Shown in pieces: positions 32,124 to 61,532 of a DNA stretch of 64,000 nt. The notes under the pieces are model-generated. The model had not been told where the DNA came from and did not search any database. It was given only the letters and a program-made list of their open reading frames with translations. The position numbers and the translations under genes were made by a program. The first letter of the stretch is position 1. Each line of letters starts with the position of its first letter. The DNA is from Nitratifractor salsuginis DSM 16511 (GTDB taxonomy: Bacteria; Campylobacterota; Campylobacteria; Campylobacterales; Sulfurovaceae): positions 1,922,001-1,986,000 of the forward strand of contig NC_014935.1 in assembly GCF_000186245.1 (NCBI RefSeq). Reading direction: 5' to 3'.

Positions 32124-32158
32124 TTCAAAGTTAATAGTTAACAGTTAATAGTGAAAAG
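32124..32158. repeat. Heptanucleotide tandem repeat, moeA-moaE spacer
   Basis: Five consecutive 7-base units of consensus TTAAYAG-like form (TTAATAG twice, TTAACAG, TTCAAAG, TGAAAAG), immediately upstream of the moeA ribosome binding site. Confidence 0.7.
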
Positions 32159-32220
32159 TTATGGTGCGGACTATGCCCGCGTTTAAAATAAAGGCTTTGC
32201 GCTGCAACGCAAACCGAAAT

Positions 32221-32248
32221 CATTCACCTTTCACCATTCATCATTCAC
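32221..32248. repeat. Heptanucleotide tandem repeat at the moaE 3' end
   Basis: Four 7-base units of consensus CATTCAY (one CTTTCAC). The moaE stop codon (32245-32247) lies inside the last unit. Confidence 0.7.
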
Positions 32249-32694: not shown

Positions 32695-32722
32695 CCCTCC
32701 AGAACCATTCTCTTTCTCAAAC

Positions 32723-32750
32723 TCCTCACTCCTCACTCCTCACTCCTCAC
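32723..32750. repeat. Heptanucleotide tandem repeat, moaD-moaE spacer
   Basis: Four perfect copies of TCCTCAC (minus strand GTGAGGA). Each unit carries a GAGGA core that could mimic a ribosome binding site ahead of moaE. Confidence 0.8.
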
Positions 32751-32762
32751 TCGTGAATTCGC

Positions 32763-32984
32763 TCATCCGCCGCACACCGGCGGCAAGATCGAAACCCTGT
32801 CCCCGTCTTTTAGAGGATGGTTGGGATCTTTGACCATCACATCGTTAACGGCCACGGCACACTTCTCCAGCCAGGGGCGGATCGTCTCCTCTTCAAAGAG
32901 CACCTTGGAGAGCTCCGCTAGGGAAGAGACTTCCAGCTCCATCGGCTCTCGTGCGATCGGCCCCAGAAACTCCACTTTGACCAT
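32763..32984 (-). CDS. moaD: Molybdopterin synthase sulfur-carrier subunit
   Basis: Ubiquitin-fold sulfur carrier of 73 residues. It ends PPVCGG; the terminal Gly-Gly is adenylated and thiocarboxylated to deliver sulphur to MoaE. The ATG at 32982-32984 follows GGGGGGTTAGT. It is co-directional with moaE, 68 bases upstream, and has a TATAAT 29 bases before its start. Confidence 0.92.
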   Translation of the reverse strand: MVKVEFLGPIAREPMELEVSSLAELSKVLFEEETIRPWLEKCAVAVNDVMVKDPNHPLKDGDRVSILPPVCGG

Positions 32985-33038: not shown

Positions 33039-33044
33039 TATAAT
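33039..33044 (+). promoter_or_regulatory. Possible -10 box for mqnA
   Basis: TATAAT on the plus strand, back-to-back with the moaD promoter and 181 bases before mqnA. If used, the mqnA leader RNA would contain both heptamer tracts at 33054-33095 and 33131-33200. Confidence 0.4.
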
Positions 33045-33053
33045 GGCACGAGT

Positions 33054-33095
33054 GAATGAGGAATGAGGAATGAGGAATGAGGAATGAGGAATTAG
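33054..33095. repeat. Heptanucleotide tandem repeat (GAATGAG) upstream of mqnA
   Basis: Five perfect copies of GAATGAG and one GAATTAG in uninterrupted 7-base register. Confidence 0.85.
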
Positions 33096-33130
33096 AGAAC
33101 ACTTTGCGTAAGAAGGTATTTACATCAAAA

Positions 33131-33200
33131 AAAATCCAAAATCCAAAATCCAAAATCTTTCATCCTTCATCTTCCATCCTCCATCTTCTATCTTCCATCC
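33131..33200. repeat. Ten-unit degenerate heptamer tract upstream of mqnA
   Basis: Ten consecutive 7-base units, all ending ATCY. The first four are AAAATCC/AAAATCT and the next six drift through TTCATCC, TCCATCT and TCTATCT, while the register never breaks. It ends 25 bases before the mqnA start codon. Confidence 0.85.
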
Positions 33201-33225
33201 GGCATAAGACTCTCAAAGGAGCCTT

Positions 33226-33891
33226 ATGCTGAAATTCGGCTCCATCTCCTATCTCAACCTCCTTCCCTTTCAAGTCTATATGAAGCGGCGCACCCCTTCG
33301 ACCCAATTTGCCCAAATGCTTCGCTGGCAGCGGGCGGTTCCCAGTGTCATCAACCGCCGCTTCAGACGCCACGAGATCGATGCAGCCTTTATCTCCAGCA
33401 TCGCCAGCGCCAAAGCGCCCTGCACCGATCTAGGCATCGTCGCCGACGGGGCGGTACGCAGTGTGCTGTTGATCCCCGGGAGCCGGCAGGATGACCGGGA
33501 ATCCGCCAGCTCTAATGCCCTGGCACAGGTTCTGGGATTGGAAGGAAGAGTCCTCATCGGAGATAAGGCGTTGGTCCATTATCTCGAGGGAGGTGAGGGA
33601 ATCGATCTGGCAGAGGTTTGGAAAGAACGCACCGGACTCCCCTTTGTCTTTGCCCGCCTCTGCTACACCCGCAACGGCAAAAAAATCCGCCGGCTGGCCC
33701 GAGACTTCGCCCGCCGGGAACGGCACCGCATTCCGGGCTATCTACTCAAACGCGCGGCGGCCAAGCGAGATATCTCTCCCAGAGAGCTGCAGTGGTATCT
33801 GGAACATATCGACTACCGCCTCGGATGGAAAGAGAAAAAGAGCCTTCAGCGCTTCTTGAAAGCGGCTAGACGATTGAGAATGGAAAATTGA
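33226..33891 (+). CDS. mqnA: Chorismate dehydratase (futalosine menaquinone pathway)
   Basis: Dehydrates chorismate to 3-enolpyruvylbenzoate, first step of the futalosine route to menaquinone used by Campylobacterota. 221 residues. Family marks: FGSISYLNLLPFQVY (about 4-18), DAAFISSIAS (about 52-61), SRQDDRESASSNALAQVL (about 86-103) and GDKALVHYLEG. The ATG follows CAAAGGAGCCTT. The last residues RMEN and the stop are encoded by a heptamer repeat. Confidence 0.93.
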   Translation: MLKFGSISYLNLLPFQVYMKRRTPSTQFAQMLRWQRAVPSVINRRFRRHEIDAAFISSIASAKAPCTDLGIVADGAVRSVLLIPGSRQDDRESASSNALAQVLGLEGRVLIGDKALVHYLEGGEGIDLAEVWKERTGLPFVFARLCYTRNGKKIRRLARDFARRERHRIPGYLLKRAAAKRDISPRELQWYLEHIDYRLGWKEKKSLQRFLKAARRLRMEN

Positions 33892-33906
33892 GAATGGCGA
33901 ATTTAG
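33872..33906. repeat. Heptanucleotide tandem repeat at the mqnA 3' end
   Basis: Five 7-base units (GATTGAG, AATTGAG, AATGGAA, AATGGCG, AATTTAG). The mqnA stop codon (33889-33891) is inside the third. Confidence 0.65.
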
Positions 33907-33920
33907 GATTCTTTTTTTCT

Positions 33921-33945
33921 GGTTCCCACGTTAACGTAGGAATCC
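33921..33945. repeat. REP-like imperfect palindrome
   Basis: GGTTCCCACG and its imperfect complement CGTAGGAATCC flank TTAA. It shares TTCCCACG with the palindrome at 33979, so both are probably copies of one element. Confidence 0.4.
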
Positions 33946-33978
33946 ACACGATAGCTATTACAAGCATATGCATATGCA

Positions 33979-33999
33979 TTCCCACGCGCAGCGTGGGAA
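33979..33999. repeat. REP-like palindrome in the mqnA-gltX spacer
   Basis: TTCCCACG, 5-base loop, CGTGGGAA: a perfect 8-bp stem between convergent mqnA and gltX. Upstream is the self-complementary GCATATGCATATGC. It may act as a bidirectional terminator or be a dispersed REP element. Confidence 0.5.
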
Positions 34000-34044
34000 C
34001 GAGGAGAGGAGAAAAAGGAATATAGAGGTTGCGGAGGCCTCACC

Positions 34045-57848: not shown

Positions 57849-57876
57849 AAATGAGGAATGAGGAATGAGGAATGAG
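57849..57876. repeat. Heptanucleotide tandem repeat (GAATGAG) upstream of mutS2
   Basis: Three perfect GAATGAG units plus one AAATGAG. Same unit as the tract at 33054, 25 kb away. Confidence 0.8.
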
Positions 57877-57888
57877 GAACTATTGTAT

Positions 57889-61371: not shown

Positions 61372-61454
61372 GGAATTAGGAATTAGGAATTAGGAATTAG
61401 GAATTTTTAATGAATTCCCAATCGCTAACTGCCAACTACTAATTGCCAACTCCT
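61372..61454. repeat. Two abutting heptamer tracts upstream of the aminotransferase
   Basis: Four perfect GGAATTA units (plus GGAATTT) at 61372-61406, then six AAYTNCC-like units (AATTCCC, AATCGCT, AACTGCC, AACTACT, AATTGCC, AACTCCT) at 61413-61454. Confidence 0.8.
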
Positions 61455-61473
61455 CATAATTTTTTAAAAAGAA

Positions 61474-61490
61474 GCGTTGCCAAGCAACGC
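61474..61490. repeat. Short perfect palindrome GCGTTGC-CAA-GCAACGC
   Basis: Same 7-base arms as the element at 57889 but a different loop, again between heptamer tracts. Confidence 0.6.
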
Positions 61491-61497
61491 ATACCAA

Positions 61498-61532
61498 AAT
61501 TCCTCATTCCTCATTTCTCATTCCTCATTTAT
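61498..61532. repeat. Heptanucleotide tandem repeat (CATTCCT) at the dacB 3' end
   Basis: Five 7-base units (AATTCCT, CATTCCT, CATTTCT, CATTCCT, CATTTAT). The dacB stop codon (61525-61527) spans two units. Confidence 0.75.

Follow-up and report, generated by a model that had tools for sequence, protein, structure and literature searches.

How did a run of ten in-register heptamers arise in the spacer upstream of an mqnA-like gene of Nitratifractor salsuginis DSM 16511? Many bacteria are known to carry heptameric repeats in their spacers, and how these originate is a puzzle. The window analysed here is a 64,000-nucleotide stretch of contig NC_014935.1 (positions 1,922,001 to 1,986,000), and positions are those of the window unless the genome is named. 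G000 denotes the N. salsuginis genome, and the other G numbers denote sister genomes.

The heptamer tract and the mqnA spacer

The units at 33131-33200 are, in order, AAAATCC (three times), AAAATCT, TTCATCC, TTCATCT, TCCATCC, TCCATCT, TCTATCT and TCCATCC. The preliminary description had reported ten heptamers in register, all ending in ATCY, and both the unit list and the lag-7 count bear this out. The tract has 51 of 63 lag-7 matches, where the best of 20,000 composition-matched spacers from a first-order Markov model reached 38. The five-unit ATCY pattern, (ATCYNNN)n, gave six overlapping matches in the window and none in dinucleotide shuffles. Neighbouring units resembled each other more than after shuffling of their order, which did as well in 829 of 100,000 trials. 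TRF splits the tract into AAAATCY (33131-33157) and TYCATCY (33155-33199), and two adjoining array blocks are its best description; this accounts for much of the likeness between adjacent units. The graded change that had been described for the whole tract is therefore a fair description of the second block only.

The succession of AAAATCY and TYCATCY recurs with its order kept at 1280793 and 1888295 of the genome, more loosely at 1217979 and 364572, and ambiguously at 234215 (all by eye); a scripted count of block order was too loose and gave a mixed outcome, so that the block order is a by-eye reading. Because the pair recurs elsewhere, stepwise unit copying with mutation, as first proposed, is too local an account for one tract, although whole-unit turnover is real between the close sisters G007 and G008. 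A chain-like order is a general trait of heterogeneous arrays: relative to the shuffled mean, 39 fell below and 21 above in N. salsuginis, 14 and 3 in the sisters, and 65 and 39 in other phyla.

The tract is the right-hand member of a pair of arrays. The features of this spacer and of other spacers in the window are as follows:

32129..32159, + strand: left array in the spacer between a MoeA-type and a MoaE-type gene; gene-side fold-back of 8 bp
32223..32247, + strand: right array (C-rich) of the same spacer; gene-side fold-back of 10 bp
32721..32752, unstranded: array ACTCCTC, in the next spacer
32766..32984, - strand: ThiS/MoaD-type gene, divergent, on the other side of the mqnA spacer (Pfam match for 32769-32984)
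33039..33044, + strand: TATAAT, probable -10 element for mqnA; by eye, it precedes the arrays in G000 and G001 and lies a short way before the start codon in G005
33054..33092, + strand: left array, G-rich, about 5.6 units of GAATGAG, 38 nt left of the tract
33093..33130, unstranded: centre of the spacer patch, without a clear hairpin
33131..33200, + strand: right array, i.e. the tract, C-rich on +; its G-rich strand is - and points inward
33202..33208, + strand: GCATAAG, mirror arm of the fold-back at the mqnA start
33215..33221, + strand: ribosome site AAAGGAG, in the fold-back loop
33223..33229, + strand: gene-side arm CTTATGC, including the mqnA start codon
33226..33891, + strand: mqnA-like gene (PF02621)
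57850..57879, + strand: AATGAGG array; gene-side fold-back of 8 bp (offset 0), and a hairpin on the inner side
61372..61529, unstranded: G-rich then C-rich pair (GGAATTA, ATTCCTC), with a TTTGGTATGC hairpin module on the right array

The tract had been placed in the mqnA leader RNA. TATAAT lies upstream of both arrays in G000 and in the same place in G001, and about 35 nt before the start codon in G005 (by eye); both arrays therefore probably lie within the mqnA leader, although a consensus promoter scan gave no match. The two leader arrays can pair with each other (z -1.8; 8 of 200 shuffles as good).

In the sisters, the layout of the mqnA spacer is kept with other units in G001, whereas G005 and G009 have no arrays. 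A MAFFT alignment of four mqnA spacers was poor. A start fold-back (arms GCATAAG/CTTATGC in G000) is also present in the array-bearing sisters G001, G006 and G008 with other arm sequences, and absent from the start codon in G005 and G009. With units that differ in G001 and a start hairpin that varies, the sisters yielded no conserved leader sequence or structure at mqnA. In the array-less G005 spacer (L049), the TATAAT region precedes an inverted copy of itself (GATATAAT, 7 nt, ATTATATC). At the other end of the gene in N. salsuginis (33876-34000), mqnA enters a run of degenerate heptamers (ATTGAGAATGG...) that supplies its stop codon, TGA; a GTTCCCACG-type palindrome follows these heptamers past the stop.

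Period-7 arrays and their handedness

Period-7 arrays are over-represented in spacers, and the tract is not a one-off. We counted 61 period-7 tracts in 464 kb, 38 of them outside open reading frames, and at most seven for any other period from 3 to 30. A survey of 864 kb, comprising the window and 40 evenly spaced 20-kb stretches, gave 100 arrays at a stricter and 129 at a looser cut, in 30 unit classes. Among arrays with strand bias, the mode was four full units (about 31 nt) in N. salsuginis (64/99), in the sisters (21/36) and in other phyla (97/192), the last set consisting of records picked by three exact AAAATCC units among the matches listed, so that short arrays are under-represented there. 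Units without GG make up 32 of the 99 N. salsuginis arrays and also peak at four, and we therefore rejected the G-quadruplex as a general reason for four units. Two AATGAGG-type arrays in G000 are unusually long (99208-99360 and 1878341-1878433), with overlapping matches to the left array of the mqnA spacer. A unit grammar RNNNRWT, found in 21 of 30 units with 15.1 expected, was dropped as weak.

Neighbouring arrays at most 250 bp apart and of opposite strand bias followed one order without exception in N. salsuginis: G-rich then C-rich in 28 pairs and the reverse in none, with different units in all 28. The further neighbour pairs comprised eight G-G, five C-C and two with a neutral member. 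Avoidance of the same unit within pairs (0/28, 1.97 expected, P 0.09) is not claimed. The same handedness was found in the sisters (11:0) and in other phyla (40:3, the exceptions being L108, L114 and L124). It is independent of gene directions. By gene layout, with gene calls taken from crude open reading frames, 16 of the 28 pairs lie between codirectional, seven between divergent and five between convergent genes, the convergent spacers alone giving P 0.06. Single arrays showed no clear orientation rule relative to the nearer gene (signs agreed in 21 of 37).

Array flanks and turnover

At its gene-proximal end, an array may adjoin a perfect fold-back in which the gene edge itself forms one arm (stem of at least 7 bp, starting within 5 nt of the array). 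This was found in 19 of 124 N. salsuginis arrays, compared with one on the inner side, one at an offset of 20-25 and 0.65 expected from shuffled flanks. The sisters gave 11 of 47, with four on the inner side, one at an offset of 20-25 and 0.30 expected. Other phyla showed no excess (2/203), and one of these two cases, L154, is a Campylobacteraceae record with a 16-bp stem at offset 0. The arms reach up to 18 bp (L028, L032) and extend into the gene's own codons (coding extent by eye). Among gene starts, stems of at least 7 bp occurred in 8 of 30 with an upstream array versus 22 of 502 without (P 1e-4); the start and stop labels of edges are automatic and some look wrong, and the edge at 57850 looks like a start by its sequence. 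These mirror copies of gene edges hint at how the arrays are made.

The inner side carries a different feature. Within 60 nt past the 3' end of the G strand, a hairpin was present in 30 of 124 N. salsuginis arrays, and 24 of these hairpins begin 6-9 nt from the array; the opposite side gave 19. The common form of the inner module is an AATGAGG array, TTTGGTAT and GCGTTGC-loop-GCAACGC, often with a T-run; its pattern matched 19 places in G000 and was present in 8 of 13 genomes of the genus, and the reversed control pattern gave no matches. Ten of the centres of the 28 N. salsuginis pairs contain a hairpin, and some contain two. In other phyla, hairpins showed no preference of side (six inner and six outer of 204).

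Turnover was assessed between the close sisters G007 and G008, where 10 of 23 arrays were comparable and the rest were not spanned. Six of the ten were identical, two had one substitution and one had changed length, being exactly three units (21 nt) shorter in G007. In one array all four units had changed alike at equal length, and about 92 nt with a hairpin had been lost or gained. In the orthologous spacers of G006, G008 and G011, arrays stay at the edges and units can swap. The array that differs by three units is one of two in-frame heptamer arrays within a UDP-sugar dehydrogenase reading frame (L067, 2355-3740, G008). A palindromic repeat family of about 140 bp (L066, 10027-10168, G008), with tens of copies in G007, G011 and G006, has no heptamers of its own (by eye).

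Of 199 genomes from the order, five contained three ATTCCTC units in tandem. Among the matches listed for three AAAATCC units, which may leave out records of the N. salsuginis genome itself, were Cyanobacteria, Acidobacteria, Chloroflexi, Planctomycetota, Verrucomicrobia, Bacteroidetes and others, and one record titled as Bathycorpusculum, an archaeal lineage. The preliminary description had regarded an identical tract in distant relatives as evidence of constraint; AAAATCC arrays do occur in many phyla, but the tracts are not orthologous.

Origin of the arrays and known systems

The anatomy of the arrays, their handedness, the fold-backs, the fixed-distance hairpin and the unit turnover were directly observed. 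Handedness and mirror copies make the origin of such repeats testable, since any model must yield G strands with facing 3' ends, arrays of around four units and, for this genus, fold-backs specific to each gene. Our preferred reading, held tentatively, is that the tract may be the arm next to mqnA in a spacer patch produced by DNA end repair. A spacer would be broken or partly lost, and at both gene edges the outward 3' strand would fold back and copy a few bases of the edge into a mirror arm. The 3' end would then switch template to a G-rich heptamer array elsewhere in the genome, copying about four units and often that array's hairpin too, after which the two ends would be joined, sometimes with filler. 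The outcome would be a G-rich array on the left and a C-rich one on the right, unrelated in unit and each close against its gene; whole-unit changes would come afterwards, through slippage and through conversion among copies. Breakage, fold-back priming, template switching and joining are the steps that we infer.

A mechanism acting on outward 3' ends would give the handedness, its independence of gene direction, the unrelated units of each pair, the position against the genes and the gene-specific mirror arms, and template switching to other arrays would give a copied array-hairpin module. If the end-repair reading is true, the spacers are a record of repair events at gene edges. Against it, only 15% of the N. 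salsuginis arrays have a fold-back, and it gives no reason for period 7 or for four units. No dedicated enzyme was found for it. The genome has no match to PF00078 (RVT_1), and a product of a telomerase-like reverse transcriptase was rejected on this ground. Fold-backs show no excess in other phyla, where the handedness holds, and the two features may therefore have different causes; gene-start fold-backs could alternatively be selected RNA hairpins. It is rather unlikely that one process operates across many phyla, namely 3'-end capping at gene edges by a fold-back and a G-rich array of fixed length (about four units), followed by joining into a scar like a telomere fusion without telomerase.

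The alternatives account for other parts of the evidence. Slippage could build arrays in spacers, oriented by selection against G-rich sense before genes, where GAGG or AGGA with ATG would act as false ribosome sites. The exact three-unit difference between sisters and the likeness of neighbouring units agree with slippage, and the commonest unit indeed contains GAGG and ATG; yet period 7 alone is enriched, unit number peaks at four without a spread, the rule holds in the five convergent spacers as well (their P value being 0.06), and the gene-edge fold-backs and fixed-distance hairpin are left unaccounted for. We consider this origin unlikely. An effect at the RNA level, with edge hairpins and arrays protecting or insulating cistron RNA or tuning translation, appears quite improbable. 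The mqnA ribosome site does sit in the loop of the start hairpin, which recurs with differing arms in four genomes, and the pairing of the two leader arrays would suit such a role. Other start hairpins, however, pair the ribosome site itself (e.g. arms TTTCCTCCT/AGGAGGAAA and TGACCTCC/GGAGGTCA), an inconsistency for which we rejected start-hairpin function as the cause; fold-backs also occur at edges inside gene ends, and the array-less G005 and G009 lack the hairpin at the start codon.

Two opposed heptamer-hairpin modules might also transpose as one mobile element through a Y1 (RAYT-like) transposase. REP, REPIN and BIME elements have constant ends and a cognate RAYT transposase flanked by the repeat. 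Dispersed array-hairpin modules in fixed register, opposed pairs and Y1 transposases are all present in N. salsuginis, but the paired arrays carry different units (28/28), their outer ends are gene-specific mirror copies instead of constant sequences, and phyla that lack the hairpin follow the handedness rule all the same. For the two RAYT-like genes that we viewed, the flanks carry no arrays, and neither constant ends nor a repeat-flanked transposase was found; the Y1 transposase was rejected as carrier, and a mobile element of this kind is doubtful. One RAYT-like gene (L062, 980-1447, G000) lies between GTAGGGTGCGC-type repeats. Seven Y1 transposase copies in G000 (L054-L060), of equal score and length, have alike flanks, and no heptamers were found in the flanking stretches viewed for the seven IS200-type copies.

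The end-repair reading concerns repeats of a kind already in print, at least for heptamers and convergent pairs in Xanthomonas. In the titles and abstracts searched, which exclude most subscription journals, neither gene-edge fold-backs nor a handedness rule across units was found, and the covered part of PMC4060949 contains no heptamer terms. According to the covered part of Rehm et al. (2015; PMC4692102), GGGNATC heptamers occur in spacers of Xanthomonas and Nostoc, mostly as four units, and convergent pairs of one heptamer unit were counted in 70 and 75 cases in Xanthomonas. The N. salsuginis arrays share the spacer location, the usual four units and the convergent pairs. In contrast to that system, which has one unit type and is read as a G-quadruplex, N. 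salsuginis has about 30 units, several without GG, and gene-edge fold-backs and a fixed-distance hairpin, neither seen described for GGGNATC repeats in that part. The TAACTGA direct repeats of Beggiatoaceae, Cyanobacteria and Bacteroidetes (MacGregor 2015; PMC4679880, in its covered part) are likewise tandem spacer heptamers, patchy across phyla and with 7-nt indels between relatives, but they have one unit, stand mostly forward just before start codons, and related heptamers are rare. Geobacter metallireducens has heptanucleotide elements of four and five units, which, as given in the covered part of PMC2700814, resemble the present arrays in having four tandem units at dozens of dispersed places; they differ in being conserved, GC-rich, also located inside genes and read as a regulatory site. 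REP, REPIN and BIME elements, as far as the sources consulted in part describe them, are alike in being small tagged palindromes in spacers, often opposed and present in many copies.
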